Assembly: GCA_945871905.1 (NCBI GenBank)
Contig: CAMBXL010000006.1
Span: 1 to 64,000 of the forward strand
Reading direction: 5' to 3'
Source of the DNA: Chitinophaga pinensis
GTDB lineage: Bacteria > Bacteroidota > Bacteroidia > NS11-12g > UBA955
Length of the DNA stretch: 64,000 nucleotides
Both the position numbers and the translations under genes were made by a program. Positions 1 through 40,091 of this stretch are shown piece by piece. Below the pieces are notes generated by a model. That model was not told the origin of the DNA. It worked only from the letters and a program-made list of their open reading frames with translations, and made no database searches. Position 1 is the stretch's first letter; each line of letters begins with the position of its first letter.

Positions 1-683
1 TTTTTATTTTGTTTGTTTATTGACCAATAAGTATGTTGAGTAATTTTATCACCTTGTATTTCAAGATAAGTGCCTGCTTGTAATGATTTAATACCATTTA
101 CTAATGTTTCATGAGACGTTACGGTATGGAAAGTCAAAAAATCACCCAAGGCATTTTCATTGATCTGAAAAGCAGTATTTTGCCCCTTCATTATGGTCCT
201 TATTTCAGACGCAAAACTAAGTTGGTGATGCTCATTAACAAAATAGTACATTGGCTTAACGCCTAATCTATCTCTTATTAAAAAAACTTTATCTGCCATA
301 CAATCATACAAAGCAATAGCAAACATGCCATCTAAGTGTTCAACAAAGGAAATTCCCCACTTAAGGTAAGCCGCTAATATTACTTCCGAGTCGGTTTGTG
401 TTTTGAAATCATAGTCAGTTAAGCTTGCTTTAAGGGTTTTGAAATTATAAATTTCACCATTAAACACCATTACTACTTGTTTATTATTCGACCACATGGG
501 TTGGTGGCCAAGAGAAGACAAATCAATAATTGAAAGGCGGGTTTGTGCCAATGCAACTTTGTTATTTAACCATATTCCATCGTCATCAGGACCACGGTGT
601 TTCATTGCTGAAACCATTTTTTTGATGTCAATAGCGGCTTGTGACTGCTCTTTAAAATTAATAATTCCGCTTATTCCACACAT
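1..683 (-). CDS. asnB: Asparagine synthetase (glutamine-hydrolysing)-like, N-terminal part
   Basis: Reading down from an ATG at 683, the frame opens with MCGISGI and stays open to the window edge (about 227 codons), so the C-terminal synthetase part lies outside. Cys2 is the N-terminal nucleophile of class II glutamine amidotransferases, and the domain also shows RGPDDDG, NGEIYNF and RDRLGVKP. In the family this domain frees ammonia from glutamine for the ATP-dependent amidation domain. Such genes in polysaccharide loci often amidate uronic acids rather than make asparagine; that role is inferred here. The start overlaps the end of the upstream glycosyltransferase gene by 13 bases, so the two are probably co-transcribed. 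A second copy of this domain is in the fusion at 37014-40091. Confidence 0.9.
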   Translation of the reverse strand, partial: MCGISGIINFKEQSQAAIDIKKMVSAMKHRGPDDDGIWLNNKVALAQTRLSIIDLSSLGHQPMWSNNKQVVMVFNGEIYNFKTLKASLTDYDFKTQTDSEVILAAYLKWGISFVEHLDGMFAIALYDCMADKVFLIRDRLGVKPMYYFVNEHHQLSFASEIRTIMKGQNTAFQINENALGDFLTFHTVTSHETLVNGIKSLQAGTYLEIQGDKITQHTYWSINKQNK

Positions 684-10779: not shown

Positions 10780-11880
10780 TTAACTAAAAAATGCTTTAAC
10801 TTTTTCGATAACTTGCATTTGTTGCGCTTCAGACATCCCTTGGTAAAGAGGAATACTTAATGTTTCATTGGCAATTTTTTCGGCTATAGGAAAATCACCT
10901 TGTTGGTAATTTAATTCTTTGTAGGCTTTTTGTAAATGTGGTGGAACGGGATAATGAATAACAGTTCCAATACCCTGTTCTGTTAAATATTTTTGCAATT
11001 CATCTCTTTTAGCGGTTCTAATTTGATAAATGTGATACACAGAAGTGCAATTTTCGGCATTTTGAGGCAATGTTAAACCGTTTATTCCTGCCAATTGTTC
11101 ATCGTATATTTTTGCTAACCTTTGTCTCTCTGCAGTGTCTGCAGGTAAATATTTTAATTTAACATTGAGTAAAGCGGCTTGTAATTCATCTAATCTTGAA
11201 TTAACCCCTTTTATCTCATTGTAATATTTAACTTGTGATCCATAATTCCTAATTACTTTGACTTGATTATGCAATGTTTCATCATTGGTCGTAACAGCTC
11301 CTGCATCACCCAAAGCTCCTAAATTTTTTCCAGGGTAAAAACTTGTGGCATTTAAATGTCCAAAACTACCTGCCAATTTACCATTGCACAATGCTCCTTG
11401 TGATTGCGCATTGTCTTCGACTACTGCCAATTTGTATTGATTGGCTATTGCCATAATTTTATCCAATTCAGCGGCTTGACCATATAAATTAGCTGGAATG
11501 ATGGCTTTTGTTTTTGAAGAAATTTTAGCTTCTATTAAATCAGGGTGGATGTTACAAGTAGCCCAATTTGGTTCTACAGGCACAGGAATTGCGCCCACAT
11601 AAGAAACAGCTAACCATGTTGCTATATAAGTATTTGAAGGCACTATTACTTCTTCACCTTCGCATATATTAAGTGCTTTTAACGAAAGAATCAATGCATC
11701 CAATCCATTTGCAACTCCGACGCTAAATTTTGTTTGGTTGTATTGGGCATAATTTTGCTCAAATAGTTCTAAATGCTTTCCCATAATGTACCAACCCGAT
11801 TGGAGTACATTGTCAAAAGCTGTTTTAAGCTCCTCTTGATGAGCTAAATTAATTGATTTTAAATCTAAATAAGGAATCAT
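10780..11880 (-). CDS. fdtB: Sugar aminotransferase, DegT/DnrJ/EryC1 family (FdtB/QdtB-like)
   Basis: A 366-residue PLP enzyme of the sugar aminotransferase family. It shows GVANGLDALILSLKAL near 55-70, VEDNAQSQGA (154-163; D156 for the PLP pyridine nitrogen) and FYPGKNLGALGDAG (181-194) with the Schiff-base lysine K185. Together with the FdtA-type ketoisomerase and the acetyltransferase just upstream it should convert a dTDP-3-keto-6-deoxyhexose to the 3-amino sugar. The VIRNYGSQVKY and GVNSRLDELQAALL stretches are typical of the FdtB/QdtB/TylB branch. A repeat-filled gap of 271 bases separates it from the acetyltransferase. Fuc3N and Qui3N cannot be told apart from sequence. Confidence 0.85.
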   Translation of the reverse strand: MIPYLDLKSINLAHQEELKTAFDNVLQSGWYIMGKHLELFEQNYAQYNQTKFSVGVANGLDALILSLKALNICEGEEVIVPSNTYIATWLAVSYVGAIPVPVEPNWATCNIHPDLIEAKISSKTKAIIPANLYGQAAELDKIMAIANQYKLAVVEDNAQSQGALCNGKLAGSFGHLNATSFYPGKNLGALGDAGAVTTNDETLHNQVKVIRNYGSQVKYYNEIKGVNSRLDELQAALLNVKLKYLPADTAERQRLAKIYDEQLAGINGLTLPQNAENCTSVYHIYQIRTAKRDELQKYLTEQGIGTVIHYPVPPHLQKAYKELNYQQGDFPIAEKIANETLSIPLYQGMSEAQQMQVIEKVKAFFS

Positions 11881-12151
11881 TGTATGGGGGTTAATGGTTA
11901 ATGGTTATTAGTTAAGGGAATTAGCTTTTGTCATCCGGAGTGCCTTTACTGAGCTAGTTTACCCTGAGTTTATCGATGGGAAGTGCTCTTGAAGGTTGTC
12001 ATCCTATGAGCGTGTCCGCCTATGGAGAATGTCAGCCATAGGCTGATGTACGGAAGGAAGTCAAAAGGTTATCTGTTTACTTTCTTGTCGCCCTTCGATA
12101 TTATTCAGCATAGCTGAATCACTCAGGGTGACAAGAAAGTTGAACTTTTTT
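11881..12151. repeat. Mixed dispersed repeats between two sugar-pathway genes
   Basis: It begins with GGTTAATGG words (11889-11920). A GTCATCC...AGTCA element follows, holding a 38-base segment (11947-11984) that recurs with a few changes at 51452-51490. A small hairpin TCAGCC-ATA-GGCTGA lies near 12043-12057. The long hairpin at 12080-12139 closes the region. No coding frame is credible here. Confidence 0.75.
12080..12139. repeat. Nested hairpin element (GTCRCCCT/AGGGTGAC ends)
   Basis: An outer stem CTTTCTTGTCGCCCT (12080-12094) pairs with AGGGTGACAAGAAAG (12125-12139) with one G-T wobble. Inside lies a second perfect hairpin, ATTCAGC-ATA-GCTGAAT (12103-12119). It starts 13 bases past the stop of the acetyltransferase gene and could attenuate or end minus-strand transcription, though the T-run (12145-12152) is on the plus-strand side. 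The GTCACCCT/AGGGTGAC ends match the two elements at 26398-26498. Confidence 0.7.
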
Positions 12152-12703
12152 TTAATTTTGAATTAATCTTTCTTCAACTACTTCGTAGTTGTTTCCTTGA
12201 CTATCTGTAAAGATATTTGTTGAAATTTCTTTTAATTTTTCACCATTGTTATTTACCCATCCATTTTGTTTGGCTGGGTTGCCAACCATCAATGCATTTG
12301 GAATAACATTCTTTGTTACCACACTCCCTGCAGCAATAAGGGCATGTTCCCCAATTTCTAATCCTCCAAGAATGGTTGCATTAGCACCAATACTACATCC
12401 TCTACGTAAATTGGTTTTTTGAAATTTACTAGGATATTGTTTAGATTTGGGATATTGGTCATTTATAAAAGTGGCATTAGGACCAATGAATACAGAATCT
12501 TCTACCCTAATTCCATCCCATAAATAAACACCACTTTTTACAGTAACATTGTCACCAATAACCACATCATTTTCTATAAATGTATGGCAATTGATGTTGC
12601 AATTACTTCCGATTATGGCATTTTTTAAAATCACTACAAACTGCCAAATAGTAGTTTTTTCACCTATTTGCTTCGTTTGCACATCTGCTAAAGGATGAAT
12701 CAT
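12152..12703 (-). CDS. Sugar O/N-acyltransferase, left-handed beta-helix (FdtC-like)
   Basis: A 183-residue trimeric hexapeptide-repeat transferase. Successive I/V-G-X4 rungs run from about residue 10 to 150 (for example IGSNCNINCHTFIENDVVIG and IGANATILGGLEIG). The C-terminal AAGSVVTKNVIPNALMVGNP is typical of acetyl-CoA-dependent sugar acetyltransferases. Next to the ketoisomerase and DegT genes, the likely reaction is N-acetylation of the dTDP-3-amino sugar. The start ATG overlaps the upstream stop as ATGA (12700-12703). Another acyl group or an O-linked target cannot be ruled out. Confidence 0.82.
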   Translation of the reverse strand: MIHPLADVQTKQIGEKTTIWQFVVILKNAIIGSNCNINCHTFIENDVVIGDNVTVKSGVYLWDGIRVEDSVFIGPNATFINDQYPKSKQYPSKFQKTNLRRGCSIGANATILGGLEIGEHALIAAGSVVTKNVIPNALMVGNPAKQNGWVNNNGEKLKEISTNIFTDSQGNNYEVVEERLIQN

Positions 12704-13104
12704 TTTTTTTGTAATGCTTTAAAATCTTCGTAACTTCTGATATAATCTGCTTCGTTGTATATACTTGATGCAATAACTAACTGGACCGCATTGTGTGAAT
12801 ATTGCATGGTGTGCCAACATAGTTTGGGCATATAGAGTCCCATATCAGGCTTGTCTATTACAAATACATTAACGCTTCCATCGGGCATTTCGGTATTCAC
12901 TATTATTCGACCTGCCATTGCTATAAGTACCATTTCCGTCTCATAATGAGCATGTCTTCCTCTTACTACTTCTTCGGGGGTATAGTAGGTCCAGAAATTT
13001 CGCTTAATTTCAAATGGGATGTCAGCATTAGATTCTCCTATAGACAAATAGCCCTCGGATGGTTTTCCAATGCGTTTAAAATTGATAATTTGGGGGGTGT
13101 TCAT
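12700..13104 (-). CDS. fdtA: dTDP-4-keto-6-deoxyhexose 3,4-ketoisomerase, cupin (FdtA/QdtA-like)
   Basis: A 134-residue single-cupin protein, the usual length for FdtA/QdtA. It opens INFKRIGKPSEGYLSIGE. The active-site region is WTYYTPEEVVRGRHAHYETE, with the RGxHAH histidine pair that these isomerases use for proton transfer. The tail has CWHTMQY and a DYIRSYEDF segment also typical of the family. It supplies the 3-keto substrate of the aminotransferase at 10780-11880. The substrate-making rmlA and rmlB genes are not in this window. It ends in an ATGA overlap with the acetyltransferase. Confidence 0.87.
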   Translation of the reverse strand: MNTPQIINFKRIGKPSEGYLSIGESNADIPFEIKRNFWTYYTPEEVVRGRHAHYETEMVLIAMAGRIIVNTEMPDGSVNVFVIDKPDMGLYMPKLCWHTMQYSHNAVQLVIASSIYNEADYIRSYEDFKALQKK

Positions 13105-14378: not shown

Positions 14379-15512
14379 TTACCTTAGTTTTTTAAATAAT
14401 TTAGTAAATCCACTTATTCTTTTCATAAATCTAGAATGTTGAGGATACAATCCTGTTTCATATGATTTATATTCTAAGTGTGACTTTACAGGACTTTTCA
14501 TGAAATTTTCAAACATATCATTATCAATGCCTAATTTCTTTAAAACAAACTCTTTATCTTCTTCTAATTGCAATTCAGATGAATATGGATTTTTTTGAAT
14601 TTCAATAAGGGCTTCATCTCTTGTTATTTGTCCCGAACAAATTAAATTAGACAAATGAGCTTTACGTTTATCATAACCAAATTTTTCTTTTAAAACATAC
14701 CCTTGATAAAATCTTGTAAATATGGATTCGTAATGTTTCCCTCCATAGTCTCTCCAAGCAAATTCTTTTATAATGGTTTCTTTTGCATCATTTTTATCAT
14801 AGTCAACAAATTCTAAAAGGTTTAATCTTTCAATTTTTTCAATTAATTGATATTTTGAATATTCAAAAAATCCCATCATTGGAAATGTCTTCAGTTTTTT
14901 AGTGCCATGTTTAGCATGAATGTCAATAATGTTAGCAACATCCATTTTACTCCATCTCATCGTTTTAGGCAAAATAGCTTCAGTTTGAAAGTTATGGCCA
15001 GTTAGAATGTATTTTATTTTATGTTTACTTGACTGTTTGTACAACATTGCAAAAAAACCATGGTCTGTTGGTATTTCCCAATCTAATACAGAAGCTTTTA
15101 TATAAGAAAGCTGTAAATCCTTGAACTCATCCCAATCTACTACATAGGTATATAAATCAAAACCAGTATGACTTATTATTGAATCAATATTTTTTACAGC
15201 CAACTCTGAATTCCATCCATTGTCAAAATGTATTAAAAGTGGATTTAAGCCCCATTCTTTTGCTAAATAAGCCAAATAACTACTGTCAACCCCTCCACTT
15301 AAACCCATTATTGAATCGTACTTTTTGCCTACACCATTCTGTTTAATTTTATCAAGTAATCCTTCAAGTTGTTTACTTCTAATTTCTAGTGAGGGAAATT
15401 CATCAACATACTTTTTTTTGTAATTTGTACAATAATTACAAACACCATTTTCATCAAAAAGTAAATAAGGGTCATCATTTGTATCAAGGATACAATTTTT
15501 ACATATTTTCAT
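14379..15512 (-). CDS. N-acetyl sugar amidotransferase (WbpG/PseA/LegA-like)
   Basis: A 377-residue PP-loop enzyme. Four cysteines in two CxxC pairs (C4/C7 and C25/C28) make a likely zinc site. SGGVDS (72-77) is the ATP pyrophosphatase loop. HFDNGWNSELAV and YGGKHYESIFTRFYQGY are hallmarks of the family. Members use ATP and ammonia to turn an N-acetyl group into an acetamidino group on a nucleotide or nonulosonic sugar. The ammonia usually comes from a HisH/HisF-like pair, and exactly such genes follow upstream (15517-16257 and 16513-17136). A paralogue forms the C-terminal half of the fusion at 37014-40091. Substrate is unknown. Confidence 0.9.
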   Translation of the reverse strand: MKICKNCILDTNDDPYLLFDENGVCNYCTNYKKKYVDEFPSLEIRSKQLEGLLDKIKQNGVGKKYDSIMGLSGGVDSSYLAYLAKEWGLNPLLIHFDNGWNSELAVKNIDSIISHTGFDLYTYVVDWDEFKDLQLSYIKASVLDWEIPTDHGFFAMLYKQSSKHKIKYILTGHNFQTEAILPKTMRWSKMDVANIIDIHAKHGTKKLKTFPMMGFFEYSKYQLIEKIERLNLLEFVDYDKNDAKETIIKEFAWRDYGGKHYESIFTRFYQGYVLKEKFGYDKRKAHLSNLICSGQITRDEALIEIQKNPYSSELQLEEDKEFVLKKLGIDNDMFENFMKSPVKSHLEYKSYETGLYPQHSRFMKRISGFTKLFKKLR

Positions 15513-15516
15513 TAAA

Positions 15517-16257
15517 TTATAAAACTTCAGAGGGATAATTGATTAAAATTGATTTAGGATCATTGTTTCTATATACAAACAAACTCCCTGCTGCAATTGC
15601 ATTTGCGCCATTAGCGACCGCTTCTTTCATATTTTGAGTGTTGTTACATCCACCCATTGCAACTATAGGAATACTTAAACTTTTTAACTCAGATATCATT
15701 TCTAAATTGTATCCTACAAAGGTACCATCTCTGTCTATATCTTGTAAAATTATTTCTCCTATTCCATATTCTATCATTTCTAATGCAAAAGATTTGATAT
15801 CCTTCTTTATATACGCTTTGCCTGAATTAAAATGTGGACGAAGTTTTCCTAATATATTTTTTTTAAAATCAAGCGACATTACTACACTTTGAGCACCATA
15901 AATACTTGCTATTTGGGTTATCACTTTAGAATTTTCTTGTAAAACTGAATTTAAAACAACTTTTTCAATTCCTAATCCAAATATTTTCTTGGCTTGTTCT
16001 AATGTTTTTATTCCTCCTCCATAACCTAAAGGCATAAAAGCCTCACCTGCCATTTCATAAATTAACTTATAATTGGGTTCTTTATTTTGCTTAGAGGCTT
16101 CAATGTCTAAAATAATAAGTTCATCTACTCTTTTTTCATTAAAAATTTTAATAGCATTTAATGGATCGCCAATGTAATTAGGATTTTTAAACTTTACTGT
16201 CTTTACCAATCGATTACCCATTATGGTTAAAACTGGTATTATTCGTGTTCGACTCAT
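15517..16257 (-). CDS. hisF: HisF-like ammonia-channel partner of the sugar amidotransferase
   Basis: A 246-residue (beta/alpha)8 barrel of the imidazole glycerol phosphate synthase cyclase family. It starts RIIPVLTIMGNRLVKT: residue 11 is Thr where histidine-pathway HisF has the catalytic Asp11. The second catalytic Asp is kept in MSLDFK near 128-133. The barrel phosphate loops GGGIKTLEQA and AMGGCNN are present. A lost Asp11 and the neighbouring amidotransferase suggest the protein passes ammonia for amidination rather than making histidine; no other his gene is near. The gene ends 4 bases before the amidotransferase start. Confidence 0.86.
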   Translation of the reverse strand: MSRTRIIPVLTIMGNRLVKTVKFKNPNYIGDPLNAIKIFNEKRVDELIILDIEASKQNKEPNYKLIYEMAGEAFMPLGYGGGIKTLEQAKKIFGLGIEKVVLNSVLQENSKVITQIASIYGAQSVVMSLDFKKNILGKLRPHFNSGKAYIKKDIKSFALEMIEYGIGEIILQDIDRDGTFVGYNLEMISELKSLSIPIVAMGGCNNTQNMKEAVANGANAIAAGSLFVYRNNDPKSILINYPSEVL

Positions 16258-16512: not shown

Positions 16513-17136
16513 TTAGCCAATATGTTCCAGAAAGGCTTTGAAAAAAGCTTGTCCGAATACATGCGACTTTTCAGGATGAAACTGAACCCCAATAATGTTA
16601 TCTTTTATAATTCCATTGTGAAACGTTTGTCCTCCGTATTCGGCTGTCGATAAAACATCTTTCTGTTCTTTACAATTGACAAAATATGAATGGACATGGT
16701 AAAAACGAGGTACTTCTTCTTCGAAACCACAATCACTAAATGGTTTTTTAATAAAATGAGTATCAGACCATGCCATGTGAGGTACTTTAATTTCCTTGTC
16801 TGCAAATATAAATTTTTTAGTATTAGCTTCAATCCATCCTAAACCACTGCAGTTACCTTCTTCGCTGAATGAAGTCATTAATTGCATGCCTAGACATATC
16901 CCTAAAATTGGTTTTTTTTGGATTAACACTAAATCATTAAGCACTTCTATTAAACCTTGGTTTTGCAGATTTTGCATCCCTTGTGTAAAGTGACCGACCC
17001 CTGGCAATATCAAGCCTTTAGCAGATTGCATTACTTCAATGTCATTGCTTATTACTACCTGACCTGCCCCCACTTTTTTTAACATGTTTTTGATAGAAAG
17101 GGGATTTCCAAGGCCGTAATCAATGATAACTATCAT
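16513..17136 (-). CDS. hisH: HisH-like glutamine amidotransferase
   Basis: A 207-residue class I glutaminase. The nucleophile is C81 in LGICLGMQLM, and H187 with E189 (VQFHPEKS) complete the triad. IIDYGLGNPLSIKNML at the N-terminus is typical of HisH. In the WbpG/PseA-type systems a HisH paralogue frees ammonia from glutamine and hands it through the HisF-like barrel to the sugar amidotransferase; the local gene set supports that role over histidine synthesis. Its ATG overlaps the stop of the upstream gene as ATGA (17133-17136). A 255-base repeat region separates it from its hisF partner. Confidence 0.87.
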   Translation of the reverse strand: MIVIIDYGLGNPLSIKNMLKKVGAGQVVISNDIEVMQSAKGLILPGVGHFTQGMQNLQNQGLIEVLNDLVLIQKKPILGICLGMQLMTSFSEEGNCSGLGWIEANTKKFIFADKEIKVPHMAWSDTHFIKKPFSDCGFEEEVPRFYHVHSYFVNCKEQKDVLSTAEYGGQTFHNGIIKDNIIGVQFHPEKSHVFGQAFFKAFLEHIG

Positions 17137-18380
17137 ATTGAATTAATTTTTTTATTTAACAAAGTTAAAAACTCGTTATAATTATTAAAAGAATTATCAT
17201 ATAAACTTGTAGAAAACAATGGGAAATTTTTATTTTTTTCACGCCAAACTATAATTTCTAATCCTAAATTATCTCTTTCAAAAAGTATTGCAGAATAAGC
17301 ACAAATGCCAATTTTCACAGAATTAAAATCAATGGATGAAGACTCATTTGAATCATAATAGCATATTTTGCTTTCATCAATAAACAATTGATAATATTTT
17401 TTAGCTTCCTCAATATGTTTTTTTTCTTTGGGGTGTAAATATATTTTTAAAGTCAAATCGTTATCATTTACATACTTAGCTACAATTCTTAGGCATTCTT
17501 CTTCATCTTCTGGGTTTGCAAAAAGAGCATTTGTTAATTTTGTTTTTCTTCTAAGCCATCCTCCATGGGAATAAAAACCTAATAAATATTTGTATTCATT
17601 TTTATTTGTTATATAATAATTATCTGATAGGTATTTTTTTGAATATTCTGGGGGCCAAATCTCAATCTCTTTATAAAATATTATTTCTTTAAACTTTAAA
17701 TTAAACTCTTCGACTTGGTAATTACTACTTAATACAATTACATCTGTCATTAAATTTTGATTATGGGCAATTAAAGCACCTGGAGAAGGATGTTTAAAAA
17801 TTTGCATTTCTGAGAATTCCTTCAATAATAAATACAAAAAATTAGCATCTTTCTCAGATGTATTAAAAAAATGCAAAATTTTAGGTTGAACAAGGCTTAT
17901 ACAATTTATCAAATTGAGTGCTTCAATAAACTCTGAAAAAATTAAAGCAATTTGAACTCTATTTTTACAAATAATAGTTATCGGTATCAATAAAATAGAT
18001 AAAAAAATTAAGTATAGGTATGTCCTTACTTTATTTTTTGACATCAAGAGTTCATCCCTAAAACAACAAGTCACTAAATTTACATCATATTTTTTTTTCC
18101 ATATTACATATTCTTTAGTTGTTTTACAATTTGCTACACTTGCTTCAAAAATCAAAACATCATTTTTTTTAAAATCATAATTCTTTGAACTAAGATTTAT
18201 TAAAACACGTTTTAATATCTTAAAACCAATAAGTCTATCATTTGCTGCAGAATCAGGCAGTCTAAAAGTAGGTTTAGATATAAGTTCTTTACCTGCTATT
18301 CGCCATCGCTGATTTCCCACTTGAAACAAACCACAAAAAATGGCTTTTAAAAACCAAAAAAATACTTTGATTTCTATCAA
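17133..18380 (-). CDS. Unknown protein, possible GT-B sialyltransferase-like enzyme
   Basis: A 415-residue protein not recognised with certainty. It has a short hydrophobic patch near residues 130-145 that might be a membrane contact. In the C-terminal half it shows KIYLHPKEK near 316-324 and then GICAYSAILFERD near 365-377. An HP motif followed by a serine-containing loop before a Glu is the arrangement seen in bacterial sialyl- and polysialyltransferases and capsule GT-B enzymes. With a NeuB-like synthase and an SpsF-like activating enzyme directly upstream, a nonulosonate transferase is a reasonable guess. It starts with TTG, coupled to the NeuB-like stop as TTGA. Confidence 0.5.
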   Translation of the reverse strand: MIEIKVFFWFLKAIFCGLFQVGNQRWRIAGKELISKPTFRLPDSAANDRLIGFKILKRVLINLSSKNYDFKKNDVLIFEASVANCKTTKEYVIWKKKYDVNLVTCCFRDELLMSKNKVRTYLYLIFLSILLIPITIICKNRVQIALIFSEFIEALNLINCISLVQPKILHFFNTSEKDANFLYLLLKEFSEMQIFKHPSPGALIAHNQNLMTDVIVLSSNYQVEEFNLKFKEIIFYKEIEIWPPEYSKKYLSDNYYITNKNEYKYLLGFYSHGGWLRRKTKLTNALFANPEDEEECLRIVAKYVNDNDLTLKIYLHPKEKKHIEEAKKYYQLFIDESKICYYDSNESSSIDFNSVKIGICAYSAILFERDNLGLEIIVWREKNKNFPLFSTSLYDNSFNNYNEFLTLLNKKINSI

Positions 18381-19075
18381 CTTAAATTTAATGTTTTTCT
18401 GATGGTTTCAAACTCTTGAGCTGTGTTTTTTATTAGTGCCAAATCTTCGGCTGTCATGGCACCAAGATGTGCTTTTTCTGTTTCAAATTGAAAGGAATGT
18501 CTCAGAGTAAAATGTTTTTCTAAAACTTTTGCACCGTGGGCAGCTGCAAATAACGCACCTGAATTTCCTAAGGTATGATCTGAAATACCTGTAAAAATTG
18601 AGTTTTTAAAATCCGGCATTTCAAACTCATCAGTTCTTGTTGGATATTTTACTACACAGAACAAATACGTAGCATGATTATATTTTTTTACCAAATTGGT
18701 GTCATAGTCAGATGGAATAGAAACGAATGTTGGCAAATTCTTGCTCATAATGGCTTCTACCAAATCCGGTGATTCTTTGTGCATTCTCGCAGCTACTTTC
18801 ATATAAGGCAAATTCAACTCCATACACCAATCCAATCTTTCAAATGTAAAAGGGGTTGCAAACAACGGTATGTTGAGTTGGTCTGCAAAATTTTTCAATC
18901 TTTTTAGTTGTTCAAATGGCATAGATAAATAGGCCCTTTCTGCCCCAAATTGAGTTTCCGTGTACAGTTGAACTTTAATGGCATTTGCGCCAGCCATTTT
19001 TGATTGAAGAATCATTTGTTCGGCAATTTCTACTTGTCCGTGAAATTGTGGTGAGATTTCTGAGATTATAAACAT
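18377..19075 (-). CDS. NeuB/SpsE-like synthase lacking the SAF domain
   Basis: A 232-residue protein with the NeuB TIM-barrel core: KVQLYTETQFG near residue 39, FATPFTFERLDWC near 76-88, KVAARMHKESPDLVEAI near 97-113, GISDHTLGNSGALFAAA near 164-180 and VLEKHFTLRH. The family condenses phosphoenolpyruvate with an N-acyl hexosamine-type sugar to make a nonulosonic acid. Typical members have about 340 residues, with a C-terminal antifreeze-like SAF domain that completes the active site. Here the frame stops after the barrel and no SAF-coding frame follows. The ATG overlaps the SpsF-like stop. It may use a different substrate or be a shorter natural branch. Confidence 0.8.
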   Translation of the reverse strand: MFIISEISPQFHGQVEIAEQMILQSKMAGANAIKVQLYTETQFGAERAYLSMPFEQLKRLKNFADQLNIPLFATPFTFERLDWCMELNLPYMKVAARMHKESPDLVEAIMSKNLPTFVSIPSDYDTNLVKKYNHATYLFCVVKYPTRTDEFEMPDFKNSIFTGISDHTLGNSGALFAAAHGAKVLEKHFTLRHSFQFETEKAHLGAMTAEDLALIKNTAQEFETIRKTLNLS

Positions 19076-19776
19076 ATTTTTTTGTATCTATTTTGAATTT
19101 CAAATTTTGACTTTAATTCATATTTCCATGGCTCAAAGTTCATCTTTTCTAGCATATATTTTGCTACTAGAAAATCTTCGGTTGTATCCACACTAAACTT
19201 ATATTTTTCGTAAGAATATCCCTCTTCTTCACATGCTATTAAACTACTATTAAAGTTTTCTATGTTTTCGTAGAAATAAGGCATTACATGTTCAAAATGA
19301 TTTTTTTTATTAAAATTGGGATAGGATTGAAGAAACAAATCCGTTTTTATCACTTCTAAATTACAACCCATTGGATACCCTTTATTAGGCATCGAACTAG
19401 CAAATTCTATGCTGCTGTCAGACATTATTTTTTTTCCTTTTTCTAATATCTCTATATCGTAATAAGGGCTATCGCCACATATTCTGTATAGGGTCTTTTT
19501 ACGGGATTGACTTTTTAGTATACGAAAATATCTCGAAGCTACGTTGTCCTCATCTCCAGTGTAACAAGCAATTCTTTTACTTTCTGCATATTCTCTAATC
19601 ACATTGTTCTCTTCATTTAATGAAGTTGCTATATGGATGTCTTCCTTGTCAAAAACGTTTAATAATGTTTCTATTAAATAATCCAACATAGGTTTTTCAC
19701 CTATTAACATCATGCTTTTTCCAGGCAATCTACTTGACCCCATTCTGGCTTGTACAACAACAATATTGTCTGACAT
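19066..19776 (-). CDS. SpsF-like cytidylyltransferase family protein
   Basis: A 236-residue nucleotidyltransferase-fold protein. The N-terminus VVVQARMGSSRLPGKSM is the signature of the SpsF/CMP-KDO synthetase-related family, with RxGSxRLPGK binding the nucleotide. YRICGDSPYYDIEIL near residue 95-109 contains the acidic metal site. Such proteins stand next to NeuB/SpsE-like synthases and are thought to make the CMP-activated acidic sugar. The gene overlaps the NeuB-like gene by 10 bases, which supports a joint function. Activity on a nonulosonate is inferred from family and context. Confidence 0.83.
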   Translation of the reverse strand: MSDNIVVVQARMGSSRLPGKSMMLIGEKPMLDYLIETLLNVFDKEDIHIATSLNEENNVIREYAESKRIACYTGDEDNVASRYFRILKSQSRKKTLYRICGDSPYYDIEILEKGKKIMSDSSIEFASSMPNKGYPMGCNLEVIKTDLFLQSYPNFNKKNHFEHVMPYFYENIENFNSSLIACEEEGYSYEKYKFSVDTTEDFLVAKYMLEKMNFEPWKYELKSKFEIQNRYKKICL

Positions 19777-29891: not shown

Positions 29892-31970
29892 TTATTTCAT
29901 TTTTTCAAAGACAAAATACACCGTTAACAATTGTAACAAACCTTCATAATCCGCTTTCCATTGTGGATTGTAAACCCCAATTTCTTCCAATTGTGGTATT
30001 AATTGATAGGCTATTAATTCAATCTCATTTTCGGTTATAGTACCATATAAACATAAATACTGATGAGCATTGTCAAACTCATGATCTACTTTTAATGATC
30101 CTGTCATATTTAACTTATCAATGATTTGATCTAATCCTACACTATTTGTAAATCTTAATTTCAAAGCAATCTGTGCTTCGGTTTCCAAATCCAGTGGATT
30201 GATTTCATTTAAACTATAAAAACTTGCTACTATATCCGCATGAAGGGCTTGGTTTTTAATGTACTTCTCTGAGTCTTGTTCTCTGGTTTTCAATTGTTCT
30301 AAAACCTGTTCTGGAGAATACCCTCTTTTAGCTACATCTCTTTTTACTTTCCACCATACTCTTAAATTTTCTTGTGGCTGCATGAAGATTTTTAAATCAT
30401 AAACATCCAATTGATTTTGTAGATAAAAGGAATGTAACCCCTCAAATAATATTAATTTATTTGGCTTAAGAAAAGTAGGTATTGTAAACTTGCCAGTATT
30501 GTGGTCGTAAAAACTACGCTTTACTGTTTGTCCAGTTTTTAAACTTTTAGCTTGGTCTAATTCTTGATGTAAGTGGTTAGCCCTTGGGTCTAAATGTGTA
30601 AATTTTTTCCAATTTTCATTACCCCTCTCCCATTTGTGCATGTCGTCTCCACGAATGATTGTTGTATTTTGTTGCTCAAAAACAGAAGATAAGGCATTGG
30701 TTAACGTTGATTTTCCAGCCGCCGAATCACCACCTATGCCTATCATGTAGGGTTGTGACAAAAATTTAGCTTGAATGTTGCTGCTAATACCATTTTTAAA
30801 CAACAAGTAAGCCATAATTATTAGTGTAGTTTGTAACAATGTAAAAGCAATGTTTAATAGAGTGCCATTGTAAACCAAATACGATGAATCTACTGAAGCA
30901 AAATTGAAAGAATTTAGGTAGTCAGACTGTTGAATAAATCCGAAATAGATAAAATACAAAATAGTCAATATTACCAAAACCATTTGTTCTCTTTTACCAT
31001 GCTTAATGACAAAGTAAATCAACAAAGGCATGATCCAAAAATACCACCCTTGCATAGGTGCTATCATGAGTGTCAATGCTAAAAAGGTAAATGCTAAAAA
31101 TAATATTAACTGGTCACGGTTTACGAATTTGAAACTTAAGTACCACAAAACCAATACAAAATATACAGCAGGAATAAAGTAGATTTTAAGACTTGAATTA
31201 AACTGATAATACAAATCAAAAACCTGTTGTTGAACGGGATTATTATAGACCATATTGATATAGGCCTCTGAATTGATATATGTTAGATTTAACAACAATA
31301 CAGTTACAAATAGAATTGATATAACTGATATTATTTTTTTGAAATCTACAGATGGAATTCTCCACAGGTAAATAAAATAAAAAGGCAGCACTAATACCAT
31401 GTTTGTTTTACAAGCTATTGCCAGTCCTAAAATAAAAAAAGAATACTCTTGTTTATTTTTAAATAGAAAATACAAAGATCCTATCAAAAATGCCATTGGA
31501 ATAACATCTAATTGACCATGGAAATAGTTGATATAAATTAATACTGGAGACAGCCAATACCAAATCAAAACTTGGCGTGTTCTGGTCTTGAGCCATCTCA
31601 TTAACACAAATAGAATGCTTATATCAGCGATAAACAAAGGCAATCTGTACAAGAGGCTATCAATAAATAAAAAACCATCAATACCACCTGGGAAAAGTAC
31701 CCAAAACATTGCTCTAAAACTAGAAAACAACCATAACATTAAAGGTGGATAAGGAAATTCTGTTCCTGTTCCATTTTGAGCAAAATACTCATAGGGATTT
31801 GCAAAACCTGAGGAGATAAAATAGTTTCCAAAAGGAGCAAAAAGTTCACGTAAATAGTCTGAAGAATACAGAATTGAAAGCACAAGCTTCACCCCTACCC
31901 CTGCCCAAAACAGGCGGGATTTAAGAATGGGTAATTTGTGCTTACCTTGTTTGTCTTTTAAATGTATCAT
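29892..31970 (-). CDS. Fusion of GT-C membrane glycosyltransferase and uridine-kinase-like P-loop kinase
   Basis: A 692-residue protein with two clear parts. Residues 1-395 form about ten membrane segments with YFHGQLDVIPMAFLIGSLYF near 170 and LAIACKTNMVLVLPFYFIY near 205, as in GT-C mannosyltransferase-like enzymes. The conserved acidic loop is probably GTGTEFPYPPLMLW near 68-81. Residues 409-692 are a kinase of the uridine kinase/phosphoribulokinase type: Walker A GGDSAAGKST (413-422), RGDDMHKWERGN, RSFYDHNTGKFTIPTF, LILFEGLHSFYL and a lid-like KREQDSEKYI region. The linker is short. I know of no characterised fusion of this kind. Kinase substrate is unknown. The frame is open throughout, with no sign of sequencing joins. 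Confidence 0.82.
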   Translation of the reverse strand: MIHLKDKQGKHKLPILKSRLFWAGVGVKLVLSILYSSDYLRELFAPFGNYFISSGFANPYEYFAQNGTGTEFPYPPLMLWLFSSFRAMFWVLFPGGIDGFLFIDSLLYRLPLFIADISILFVLMRWLKTRTRQVLIWYWLSPVLIYINYFHGQLDVIPMAFLIGSLYFLFKNKQEYSFFILGLAIACKTNMVLVLPFYFIYLWRIPSVDFKKIISVISILFVTVLLLNLTYINSEAYINMVYNNPVQQQVFDLYYQFNSSLKIYFIPAVYFVLVLWYLSFKFVNRDQLILFLAFTFLALTLMIAPMQGWYFWIMPLLIYFVIKHGKREQMVLVILTILYFIYFGFIQQSDYLNSFNFASVDSSYLVYNGTLLNIAFTLLQTTLIIMAYLLFKNGISSNIQAKFLSQPYMIGIGGDSAAGKSTLTNALSSVFEQQNTTIIRGDDMHKWERGNENWKKFTHLDPRANHLHQELDQAKSLKTGQTVKRSFYDHNTGKFTIPTFLKPNKLILFEGLHSFYLQNQLDVYDLKIFMQPQENLRVWWKVKRDVAKRGYSPEQVLEQLKTREQDSEKYIKNQALHADIVASFYSLNEINPLDLETEAQIALKLRFTNSVGLDQIIDKLNMTGSLKVDHEFDNAHQYLCLYGTITENEIELIAYQLIPQLEEIGVYNPQWKADYEGLLQLLTVYFVFEKMK

Positions 31971-35828: not shown

Positions 35829-37014
35829 CCTTTAGTTTAAGTAATTGATTGTAAAGCTTTTCCATTTTGACTTCATAATCTAAATGGTCTTCGGCATATT
35901 TTCGCATTTTTTGGGGTAAATCTTGGTCTTCCAAGGCTTTTTTTGCAAACTCAATTACTTTTTCCATGTCAATGTGGCTATCATCATTGGGAAATTCTAA
36001 TGCAAACTCTTTGGACTCTTCATTCAAGTCAGGGTCATTATAGGCATAGAAAAATGGTAAGCCGCGGGCAATATATTCTCTTGTTTTAAGAGTTGATGCT
36101 TCTTTTAATTCTTTTTTAAACAAGGAAAGCGTTGAAACACCAATATGAACATCTTGTAATAGTTGATCAATTTCTAATTTATTTTTATAACCAACGATTT
36201 CAACATAACTTCTTTCTGGAATTTCACCACTTATTATATGGCCACAAATTAATAATTTAATTTTTTGATGAGGGTTTAATATATTATCTATTGAGTCAAT
36301 TAATCTATCTAATCCATTCCATGGAGCATTATTAGATGTTCCTTTTAGAAATATAATTTTTAAAGGTAGTTTTAAACCAATATTTTTTTTAACATCATAA
36401 CTCTTAACACTGATTCCATTTGGTATAACAATTACTTCTTTAGCGCCTTTATTTTCTTGATATTCTCCTATTTCTTTTGTAACAGCCACAACACCAGCAA
36501 TATTCTTGACAAATAATCTTCCAAATAATTTTTCATTTAAAATTGGTACAAAATTATATTGAAACCAACTTAAGAACTTAGAAGGTTTTAAGCCAAAAAG
36601 ATTATTATTTGCCAAACTTTTAATTTCTTCATATTCTTTTGATTGGTGTTCTGATATTATTTTTTTTCCGAATTTCTTTGAAATCTTATAAAGTAGAAAT
36701 GACGATCCTGGAAACCTGAAATATAATAAATCTGAAATTAAATAATACCTTTGTATATAGTCATGAGTTGCTTTATCTAAAATAATTTTTTGACCAATAG
36801 ATCTAAAATATTTCCATTTACACTTCTTTACAGGAATTAAATTTACAAATTCATTTAATGGTGTTATTTCGGATACTTCTGAACTTAAAAAAACACCTTC
36901 ACAATTTGCGCCCGCTTTATTCAGATATTTTATTTGATTAATTACTTTAGTTTGAACAGAAGAACCCTTTAAACTTGGTGATGTAAAAATGTATTTAATT
37001 GATAAATTATTCAT
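35818..37014 (-). CDS. GT4-like glycosyltransferase
   Basis: A 398-residue GT-B protein from the ATG at 37014; a GTG three bases further up is the alternative start. The start follows TGATG, one base shared with the fusion-gene stop, so translation is coupled. FTSPSLKGSSVQTKVINQIKYL starts the acceptor domain; IVIPNGISVKSYD and FLKGTSNNAPWNGLDRLI lead into the donor domain. The C-terminal site reads STLKTREYIARGLPFFYAY, where Glu of KTREY is the likely second EX7E residue. It is a cytoplasmic transferase of unknown specificity. Confidence 0.8.
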   Translation of the reverse strand: MNNLSIKYIFTSPSLKGSSVQTKVINQIKYLNKAGANCEGVFLSSEVSEITPLNEFVNLIPVKKCKWKYFRSIGQKIILDKATHDYIQRYYLISDLLYFRFPGSSFLLYKISKKFGKKIISEHQSKEYEEIKSLANNNLFGLKPSKFLSWFQYNFVPILNEKLFGRLFVKNIAGVVAVTKEIGEYQENKGAKEVIVIPNGISVKSYDVKKNIGLKLPLKIIFLKGTSNNAPWNGLDRLIDSIDNILNPHQKIKLLICGHIISGEIPERSYVEIVGYKNKLEIDQLLQDVHIGVSTLSLFKKELKEASTLKTREYIARGLPFFYAYNDPDLNEESKEFALEFPNDDSHIDMEKVIEFAKKALEDQDLPQKMRKYAEDHLDYEVKMEKLYNQLLKLKDEN

Positions 37015-40000
37015 CACGTTGTTTTTAACTTCTTTTTTAAATAATTAATGTATAAATATGGATTTAAATAAATTTCTAATTTCTTAAATCGTTTCAAATT
37101 TTTGGTATTGTATTGTTTATAATGACTATGTGGGATAGGTTTTTCGTTGATATAAGAATTTAACTCTTCGTTAGTTAAATCAAATTTCTTAGCAACAAAT
37201 TCGAAATCATTTTCAAGAATATCTTTGCTTGGATAGGAAGGCTTTTCTAATTCTTTTATTGCCTCTTGTTTACTTATTTGACCTGAGTTGATCAAACTTG
37301 CTAAATGCGCTTTTCTTTTATCTACTCCAAACTTTGCAGGTAATACATAGCCCTGATAAAAACGGGTGAATATAGATTCATAATGTTTACCACCATAATC
37401 TCTCCAACCCATTTTTTCTATTATCGTTTCTTTTGCGTTGTCCTTGTTATAATAGACAAAATCTAATAATGGATGAAATTGAATATTGTGTTTTTTGGTT
37501 TCCAAATATTCTTTTAATGGACTTAAAAGTTTAGTTGTTTTAAGTGGTTTTGTTCCAAATTTTTGGTGAATATCGTTAATATTATCAGTATCGGCTTTGT
37601 TATACCTCATTGAATGTGGTAAAATAAACTCTGTTTGATGATTAGTTCCTGATAAAATAGATTTAATTCCTTTACTTTTGGCTAAATTAAACAATGTTGC
37701 TTTTATCAAATGATCCGTTGGAACTTCCCAATCTAAAACTGATGATTTAATATAGGACAATTGTAAATCTTTAAACTCTTCCCAATCTACAACATGGGTA
37801 TATAAATCGAATCCTGTATAATCTACTATCCTATTGATATTGTCTACTGCCAATTCACTGTTCCAGCCATTGTCAAAATGGACTAACAAAACTCTAATAT
37901 TCCATTCCTTGGCTAAACAAACCAAATAAGAACTATCTACGCCACCACTCAATCCTAATATTGCTTGGTATTTTCCTTTAGCACTTTTGATAATCTCTAG
38001 TGAATCTTCTAAATACTTTTGCTTTTGGGTTTCAGAAAGTGGATTTAATACATAAGCTTTTTCATAAGCCTGACAGTGGTTGCAAACTCCATTACTATTG
38101 AATGTTAAACTTGGATCGTCATTGGTGTCTAATACACATTTACTGCACTGTATTGCTTCTGTTTTCTGCATAAATTCACTGATTAACTTGTAATTGATAG
38201 CTTGCCAAAGCTGAACTGCAAGAACATCTGTTATGGTTTTGTTTTTTAACTGTTCTAAAAAAACTGACTTGTCTTGGAAATTTAATTCTTTTAAAAACAG
38301 ATCTAATTCAGTTCTACTTAATAATTCTTGTGCATAACTGTTAAGCTCATTGTTAAACCATGAAACCAATGGAGAACCAATCCCAACTTTAAATGTTCTC
38401 TCTACTATAGAATGTGGTACTATCTCTTTTAATGCATCTCTAACTATTCTTTTGGTATATCCCATCCCCAATTTGTGTTCTATTGGTAATTGAAAGCAAA
38501 ATTCTACTAATCTATAATCCATAAATGGCATTCTTATTTCTACACTGTTTTGCATTGAAGCCCTATCAAAATGCATTAAATAACATGGCAAACTATAAAT
38601 AAAAAAATCATTAAGTATAATTTGATTTTCATAGGAAAATTCTTCAAAATGATATAATTCATCACTGAGATGATTGGCTTCATTAGGGATTTGTATTTTT
38701 TCTACTTTTGGCTTTTTCGATCTTAATAAAGATTTCAACTTAACTTTTAAACTATTCTTGTTTTTTTCTACTTGGCTTATCAGTGAACCGAGCCTTATAC
38801 TTACCGATTCTCTGTTATTTTCATGATACAGGTTCACCAAAACCTCTTTAACTAAAATTGCTTTTTTAATACTTCCAATTTCTAAATAGTAGTAAAACAA
38901 CTTGTCTAACATATACCGATAGCCAAATAACATTTCATCTACGCCATGACCATCCAATGATACAATCACTTTTTCATTGCGAACTCCTTCGTAAATTTTC
39001 GTAATAGCATTCATTGGCGTACCCGCAATTGTATCAAATTTTTTTGTAACCTGCTCTATTTCTTGAGCCAAGTGGTCCATATTGTTACTAATACAAACCC
39101 AATTTTCTTTGCCCCATTTTTCAGCTACTACTTCAGCATATTGTTTTTCATCCATTTCTGTTCCTGGAAAAACTGCTGTAATGGCTTTTTTACATTGTTG
39201 AGCTTGTCGACTGTTATTGTTTGATTTTTCACTTATGTGATTTACCATAGAATACACAGAGGAGGAATCTAAACCACCGCTTAATGCAGAAGCTAATGGT
39301 ACATCTGAACGCATTCTTATTTTACATGCATTTTCAAACAAATTATAAAATGACTTTACATTTTCTTCGTATGAATTGGTATTGGGTTTTTTTATTTTAG
39401 CTCGAATGTCATACCATCTTTTTTGCTTGGGCAATGGTTTCCCTTTTTGAATTGTTAAAGTATGTCCAGGAAGTATTTGATAAATGTTGTCATAAATCGT
39501 TAATCCTAATCCTTCATGTGCTAATGAATTGTCAACTATTTCTTTTAATCGTTCTTTATTAATTTTTCTTTCAAAACCTTCTAAATTTTTGAATGCAATA
39601 GTCTCAGAGGCAAAAGCTATAAAGTGGTCATTGAAAGTATAATAAAGTGGCTTTATCCCAAATCTATCTCGTGCTAAATACAAACTTTTGTCTTGTTCAT
39701 CCCAAATGGCGAATGCCCACATGCCATTAAACTTGTCTAAGCAAGTTTTGCCCCAGTGGGAATAGGCAGCTAATATTACTTCTGTATCTGTGTCTGATTT
39801 GAAAACATGACCCAACTGCTGAAGTTCTTCTCTGACTTCAATAAAATTAAAGATTTCGCCATTGTAAATAATCCAATAACGCCCCTCGGCATAACTCATG
39901 GGTTGTTTACCGGCTTCACTCAAATCTAAAATAGACAAACGGCGCTGACCCAAACCAAGCGTATTATTGTCAAACAGCTCATAACCTGCCCCATCGGGAC

Positions 40001-40091
40001 CACGGTGAACCATTGAATCCGTGAAACGTTTTAAAGTTTCATATGAAACTAAATCGTTATTAAATTTCCAAATACCTGATATTCCGCACAT
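37014..40091 (-). CDS. Fusion of asparagine synthetase with N-acetyl sugar amidotransferase
   Basis: A 1025-residue protein. Residues 1-635 are a full AsnB: Cys2 nucleophile, HRGPDGAG, YNGEIFNF, RDRFGIKPLYY, then the synthetase loop SGGLDSSSV (271-279) and MPFMDYRLVEF. Residues 647-1025 are a full WbpG/PseA-type amidotransferase: C649/C652 and C670/C673 zinc pairs, SGGVDS (715-720), HFDNGWNSELAV and YGGKHYESIFTRFYQGY, the last identical with the separate enzyme at 14379-15512. The frame is open across the join. One inference is that the glutaminase half feeds ammonia to both ATP-dependent halves in place of HisH/HisF. Normal AsnB and WbpG lengths are about 600-630 and 370-380. Confidence 0.9.
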   Translation of the reverse strand: MCGISGIWKFNNDLVSYETLKRFTDSMVHRGPDGAGYELFDNNTLGLGQRRLSILDLSEAGKQPMSYAEGRYWIIYNGEIFNFIEVREELQQLGHVFKSDTDTEVILAAYSHWGKTCLDKFNGMWAFAIWDEQDKSLYLARDRFGIKPLYYTFNDHFIAFASETIAFKNLEGFERKINKERLKEIVDNSLAHEGLGLTIYDNIYQILPGHTLTIQKGKPLPKQKRWYDIRAKIKKPNTNSYEENVKSFYNLFENACKIRMRSDVPLASALSGGLDSSSVYSMVNHISEKSNNNSRQAQQCKKAITAVFPGTEMDEKQYAEVVAEKWGKENWVCISNNMDHLAQEIEQVTKKFDTIAGTPMNAITKIYEGVRNEKVIVSLDGHGVDEMLFGYRYMLDKLFYYYLEIGSIKKAILVKEVLVNLYHENNRESVSIRLGSLISQVEKNKNSLKVKLKSLLRSKKPKVEKIQIPNEANHLSDELYHFEEFSYENQIILNDFFIYSLPCYLMHFDRASMQNSVEIRMPFMDYRLVEFCFQLPIEHKLGMGYTKRIVRDALKEIVPHSIVERTFKVGIGSPLVSWFNNELNSYAQELLSRTELDLFLKELNFQDKSVFLEQLKNKTITDVLAVQLWQAINYKLISEFMQKTEAIQCSKCVLDTNDDPSLTFNSNGVCNHCQAYEKAYVLNPLSETQKQKYLEDSLEIIKSAKGKYQAILGLSGGVDSSYLVCLAKEWNIRVLLVHFDNGWNSELAVDNINRIVDYTGFDLYTHVVDWEEFKDLQLSYIKSSVLDWEVPTDHLIKATLFNLAKSKGIKSILSGTNHQTEFILPHSMRYNKADTDNINDIHQKFGTKPLKTTKLLSPLKEYLETKKHNIQFHPLLDFVYYNKDNAKETIIEKMGWRDYGGKHYESIFTRFYQGYVLPAKFGVDKRKAHLASLINSGQISKQEAIKELEKPSYPSKDILENDFEFVAKKFDLTNEELNSYINEKPIPHSHYKQYNTKNLKRFKKLEIYLNPYLYINYLKKKLKTT

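Follow-up and report, generated by a model that had tools for sequence, protein, structure and literature searches.

The fused gene and its parts

The present analysis concerns a window of 64,000 nucleotides from Chitinophaga pinensis (assembly GCA_945871905.1, contig CAMBXL010000006.1, positions 1 to 64,000) and, within it, a minus-strand gene in which an AsnB-like amidotransferase is joined to an N-acetyl sugar amidotransferase (NASAT). As assembled, this is a single frame of 1025 codons with the motifs of both enzymes, as an earlier sequence-only reading had described it. Its parts are as follows.

37014..40091, minus strand: fused open reading frame, AsnB-like amidotransferase plus NASAT, 1025 aa
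38172..40091, minus strand: AsnB-like part, residues 1-640, with an N-terminal nucleophile (Ntn) glutaminase and an ATP pyrophosphatase loop (PP-loop) synthetase
38172..38177, minus strand: junction codons Glu639-Phe640
38169..38171, minus strand: a kept ATG, Met641, a possible internal start; in the two nearest relatives the stand-alone NASAT gene begins with this codon
37017..38171, minus strand: NASAT part (WbuX/WbpG type), residues 641-1025

The AsnB part scores 412.9 bits against the asparagine synthetase B model TIGR01536 (cut-off 267.1), and its glutaminase motifs (Cys2, RRLS at 50-53, NGE at 77-79) and PP-loop (SGGLDSSS at 271-278) are intact. Like AsnB of E. coli (1ct9) it has the two-domain fold with a Cys2 glutaminase and an SGGLDS loop but, unlike that enzyme, it carries His382, within DGHGVDE (380-386), at the position which in the alignment to 1ct9 is held by the glutamate of GEGSDE. 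This glutamate is important for the amidation of aspartate, and since the AsnB part lacks the residue expected of TIGR01536 members it is not filed as an asparagine-making enzyme.

The NASAT part scores 259.4 bits against TIGR03573 (cut-off 203.2) and has a tetracysteine formed by two CxxC pairs (649-652 and 670-673) and a PP-loop, SGGVDS, at 715-720, the motif set given in the paper on structure 8wex (PMC10607449), which describes the structure and function of these enzymes as little known. Compared with the WbpG-WbuX-PseA family at large, the window member is unusual in being the C-terminal part of an AsnB-like fusion, with no HisH or HisF directly beside it. Provided that the 3 nt at the joint hold, the sequence gives the 1025-residue protein one Ntn glutaminase and two PP-loop sites in a single frame, which bears out this element of the sequence-only reading. 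Both halves fold well in the predicted structure of the fused protein, but their relative placement is not firmly predicted (pTM, the predicted template modelling score, 0.70; alignment of 45 rows, of which only three were fusions), and the model lends no support to a supply of ammonia in cis.

The junction and the age of the fusion

The two nearest relatives keep AsnB and NASAT as separate genes. These relatives are L006 (also L132, genome G017), 82% and 89% identical to the window in the AsnB and NASAT halves, and L007 (also L131, genome G040), 89% and 93% identical. Their AsnB stop codon, TAA, lies 3 nt (L006) or 2 nt (L007) ahead of the NASAT ATG, so that the joint reads GAA TAA TTT ATG in L006 and GAA TAA TT ATG in L007, and GAA TTT ATG in the window, where that TAA is missing; the window letters across the joint, as assembled, are GAATTTATG. 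Set against L006, the window has lost exactly 3 nt, in frame, from an AATAAT repeat, and comparison of the three sequences makes a 3-nt deletion the most likely way in which the stop was lost.

Within the same family, 70 genomes were searched with the NASAT half (E 1e-30) and 14 gave a match; among these the window's frame is the only one longer than 1000 aa, and the closest matches, those of G040 and G017, are unfused. In a class-wide search (395 genomes, E 1e-85) 75 matched, and the longest other frame listed was 818 aa. The fusion is therefore likely to be young, the intervening stop codon having been lost recently. Ratios of nonsynonymous to synonymous substitution rates against the relatives are 0.06-0.11 in both halves; as evidence of a functional fused gene these were rejected, because in a young fusion they mostly reflect the time before it arose. 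Amino acid changes found only in the window number 34 in the AsnB half, against 19 in L131, and 11 against 10 in the NASAT half, and the excess in the former could be a sign of relaxation.

Other NASAT fusions

A protein database search with the NASAT half, covering lengths of 0.55-1.75 times the query, gave 529 matches. Homologues with the same domain order, for which the sequence-only reading had called, do exist: among the 120 of the 529 matches that were listed, two carry precomputed AsnB glutaminase domains.

P0003: 1025 aa, 63% identity
P0004: 1024 aa, 56% identity; AsnB of a different type, with GQG replacing GHG

Since L131 and L132 are unfused, and P0003 falls outside the clade that they form with the window in the NASAT tree, the fusions in the window protein and in P0003 most plausibly arose independently. 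AsnB-NASAT fusions thus appear from their sequences to have arisen more than once, yet they are rare, and none was seen in the literature listings examined, which were short and took in few subscription journals. Neither P0003 nor P0004 has a methionine close to the joint, so that in these two the fused form may be the sole product, although GTG or TTG starts are possible.

Most of the other matches among the 120 carry glycosyltransferase domains, with glycosyltransferase-NASAT fusions in P0005, P0009-P0012 and many more. NASAT is also joined to a hexapeptide acetyltransferase (P0008, and also L148) and to HisF (P0106, 652 aa, HisF domain N-terminal), the last being evidence, at the level of sequence, of a HisF-NASAT partnership. 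The window protein resembles these in that the N-terminus of NASAT is joined to another protein of a glycan cluster, and differs in having AsnB as the partner, that of P0106 being of the HisF type thought to deliver the ammonia of NASAT. As NASAT is commonly fused to its upstream neighbours, fusion alone is weak evidence for channelling.

A recurrent AsnB-NASAT gene pair

Around the 103 NASAT matches of the family and class searches (the window's two excluded), 102 regions, most of about 17 kb, were fetched; together they contain 109 NASAT genes. An AsnB gene lies directly upstream (less than 300 bp away, same strand) of 15 of the 109; ten are of the long type seen in the window (at least 41% identity) and five are 31-34% identical. 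When L017 is added to these 15, the NASAT ATG overlaps the AsnB stop or lies at most 11 nt from it in 12 of 16 pairs, spacing being taken from the ATG nearest the AsnB stop, which favours short gaps. The remaining pairs are L174 (overlap of 23 nt), L187 (gap of 53 nt), L150 (gap of 95 nt) and L133, which has no ATG there. On the NASAT tree the paired genes are clustered, requiring 5 changes against 14.4 in shuffles. This recurrent and mostly translationally coupled gene pair is a more durable finding than the fusion itself.

HisH and HisF in the window and across genomes

The sequence-only reading had also placed at this locus a separate amidotransferase with its own HisH and HisF, and profile searches found all three.

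14379..15512, minus strand: second, separate NASAT, 377 aa (TIGR03573, 292.0 bits)
15517..16257, minus strand: HisF2/WbuZ-type protein (NF038364, 307.2 bits, cut-off 310)
16513..17136, minus strand: HisH-type glutaminase subunit (TIGR01855, 197.8 bits, cut-off 105.4)

The second of these matches NF038364 (AglZ/HisF2 acetamidino modification protein) over nearly its full length; its score falls just below the cut-off, and it is therefore called HisF2-type only.

With this HisF2 as the query, a gene of the type (at least 44% identity) was found in all 16 genomes examined that have the AsnB-NASAT pair, 12 of them with the long AsnB type and four with the AsnB of 31-34% identity. Of the 33 other NASAT genomes, 31 have it too (36-54% identity; the misses are G415 and G423). 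Among 30 genomes that lack a window-type NASAT match it turned up only in G074, which has a NASAT 0.7 kb away from it. HisF2 tracks the window-type NASAT regardless of pairing with AsnB. HisH lay within 1 kb of HisF in each of the ten paired genomes read out. In G184 (99% complete, 130 contigs) the single NASAT is paired with AsnB, and HisH-HisF lies 23 kb off; both NASATs of G460 are apart from HisH-HisF, as is the above-cut-off NASAT of G448, a genome that also has a divergent NASAT-like frame. These three layouts indicate that HisH-HisF is likely to be used in trans, by paired NASATs as well.

Some other members of the family were seen in the genomes searched. G032, G299, G324 and G448 carry a divergent NASAT-like protein that scores below the TIGR03573 cut-off, its frames measuring about 610-619 aa; the G032 copy is found just downstream of HisH-HisF. 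Six of the 30 genomes (G006, G010, G015, G019, G021 and G025) have a higher-scoring NASAT subfamily (339-368 bits) without a window-type HisF2; a NASAT of this subfamily in G017 has its own HisF, about 30% identical, and HisH alongside. The NASATs of the two genomes missed by the HisF2 search, at loci L222 (G415) and L148 (G423), lie in frames of about 590 aa, that of L222 with an extra N-terminal region and that of L148, at a contig end, joined to a hexapeptide acetyltransferase as in P0008.

What the AsnB half may do

From the fetched loci 118 AsnB-like proteins were collected, 31 of which are at least 40% identical to the window's. All 31 have Cys2, NGE and SGGxDS intact, 30 have DGHG, one has DGHA and none has GEG; among the 118 there are 70 with DGHG, 11 with DGHA, 12 with DGQG, others in the rest, and again none with GEG. 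Synthetase motifs preserved to this degree look unlike those of a decayed relay. Fifteen genomes in which a similar AsnB locus (40-51% identity) had no NASAT in the fetched DNA were searched for one: eight have it elsewhere and seven, Thermoflexibacter ruber DSM 9560 (L021) among them, have none anywhere, the seven of 15 being a selected sample, of genomes whose completeness is not given, and not a frequency. Since AsnB is kept without NASAT and has its own synthetase motifs, it most likely has its own acceptor.

By analogy with WbpS-type enzymes, the AsnB half is likely to act on a surface sugar, amidating one of its carboxyl groups. According to PMC7468200, P. gingivalis loses the uronamide when PGN_1234 is deleted, WbqG is reported to be required for uronamide formation in E. 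coli O121, and WbpS is proposed for the same step; wbpS of H. pullorum offers a further functional precedent (PMC6025236). The window protein is like these in being AsnB-like and encoded in a surface-glycan cluster. It is unlike them in its link to a NASAT, by fusion or by coupling, and its acceptor is putative.

Explanations of the fusion

The account favoured here, which we hold to be rather probable, is that two coupled glycan-modifying genes have fused while keeping separate reactions, with NASAT fed by HisH-HisF in trans. That the genes are separate in the relatives, that the TAA is missing and that the motifs of both halves are intact are direct observations; the reactions, the acceptor and the route of the ammonia we infer. 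The AsnB and NASAT genes, separate in the nearest relatives, would have been fused by the 3-nt loss of the stop codon. In the AsnB half, ammonia released by hydrolysis of glutamine would travel along an internal tunnel of that half to the ATP pyrophosphatase site of the same half, where the carboxyl group of a putative surface-sugar acceptor would be amidated. The NASAT half would use ATP to activate an N-acetyl group and convert it to an acetamidine, and the HisH-HisF pair of the cluster would deliver ammonia in trans to both NASATs.

Several observations weigh against this account. HisH or HisF lies within 1 kb of none of the 15 AsnB-paired NASATs, compared with 41 of the remaining 94 (Fisher p 0.0009, for loci that are not independent), and of 0 of 13 compared with 39 of 84 where 1.5 kb was held on both sides; 53 NASATs have neither AsnB upstream nor HisH/HisF within 1 kb. 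Taken alone, this absence would suggest that AsnB stands in for HisH-HisF, although an upstream AsnB also fills the position in which HisH-HisF is usually found. The tight coupling and repeated fusion favour a physical partnership of AsnB and NASAT. The pair of G184 is somewhat atypical, with a gap of 53 nt, DGHA as its motif and a long branch in the NASAT tree, and 15 of the 16 paired genomes have a further NASAT or NASAT-like gene that could explain why HisH-HisF was retained. With regard to the acceptor, the AsnB part scores 345.4 bits against TIGR03108 (WbpS-type, eps_aminotran_1), far below the cut-off of 816.9, so that the uronamide precedents are taken as a likeness of function and not as membership. 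A uronic-acid dehydrogenase was not found in the window, the two nucleoside diphosphate-sugar dehydrogenases that score above cut-off both lying outside it. A Wbp-like trio lies near two of 15 paired loci (L133, L152) and five of 87 others, and was rejected as a clue to the substrate because it shows no clear enrichment beside the pairs.

A neutral readthrough fusion, which is compatible with the favoured account and does not exclude it, has a chance somewhat short of even: ribosomes would still start at the kept ATG, so that the fusion and free NASAT were both made and the joint had no function of its own. The retention of Met641 fits this, as does the frequent fusion of NASAT to other upstream glycan proteins (glycosyltransferases, hexapeptide acetyltransferase, HisF), but P0003 and P0004, seen as proteins, have no methionine near the joint at which such a start could occur.

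A supply in cis, in which the AsnB glutaminase feeds the NASAT site in the fusion and in the two-gene pairs and replaces HisH-HisF, was the proposal of the sequence-only reading and is now thought unlikely. The missing HisH/HisF neighbours, the close stop/start spacing, the recurrence of the fusion in P0003 and P0004 and the clustering of paired NASATs on the tree all speak for it. It lost its place as the leading reading because of the co-occurrence of HisF2 with every pair and the layout of G184, whose sole NASAT is paired; the occurrence of similar AsnB proteins without NASAT, their intact synthetase motifs and the uncertain placement of the halves in the model also argue against it. Mutual exclusion of AsnB and HisH-HisF was accordingly rejected as a sign of replacement, being a matter of adjacency only. 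The more elaborate version, a three-site nitrogen machine with one AsnB glutaminase and two ATP pyrophosphatase sites in one chain, which would give one sugar both a carboxamide and an acetamidine and free NASAT from HisH-HisF, is quite improbable; if true, it would be a second, independently evolved route of ammonia delivery for acetamidino sugars.

Least probable is that the single assembly contains an indel error here and that the genome really has two separate genes, for although both nearest relatives have a stop there, the difference is just 2-3 nt and the internal ATG is still present, the change relative to L006 is an exact, in-frame 3-nt contraction of AATAAT with no homopolymer run, and P0003 and P0004 have the same domain order.

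Other genes of the window

Near the HisH-HisF-NASAT group, at 10780-13104 (minus strand), are genes for a DegT aminotransferase, a NeuD/hexapeptide-type acetyltransferase and an FdtA-like protein, which seem to make up a 3-acetamido-3,6-dideoxy sugar route and so a possible source of the substrate of the separate NASAT. A short NeuB-like protein of 232 aa (18377-19075, minus strand), which matches part only of the NeuB/PseI models, adjoins a CTP_transf_3 cytidylyltransferase (19066-19776) and has a 69% relative in L150. At 29892-31970 (minus strand) a protein of 692 aa has a C-terminal phosphoribulokinase/uridine kinase domain (409-585), preceded by a long N-terminal region in which Pfam gave no match; L131 (72%) and L132 (89%) have relatives that match it along roughly its whole length. 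An AsnB-like gene at about 1-683 (minus strand) is cut short by the end of contig C6, and contig C22 starts with a C-terminal AsnB half (SGVGGDE); these are possibly pieces of one gene split by the assembly.

Significance

A domain fusion seen in a single genome may be very recent, and the nearest relatives should be compared first. The ammonia source of NASAT enzymes has been little tested, and the AsnB-NASAT pair, the fusions and the layout of G184 now allow it to be tested directly. Were both enzymes of the pair to act on the same sugar, glycans carrying both an amide and an acetamidine would be predicted.

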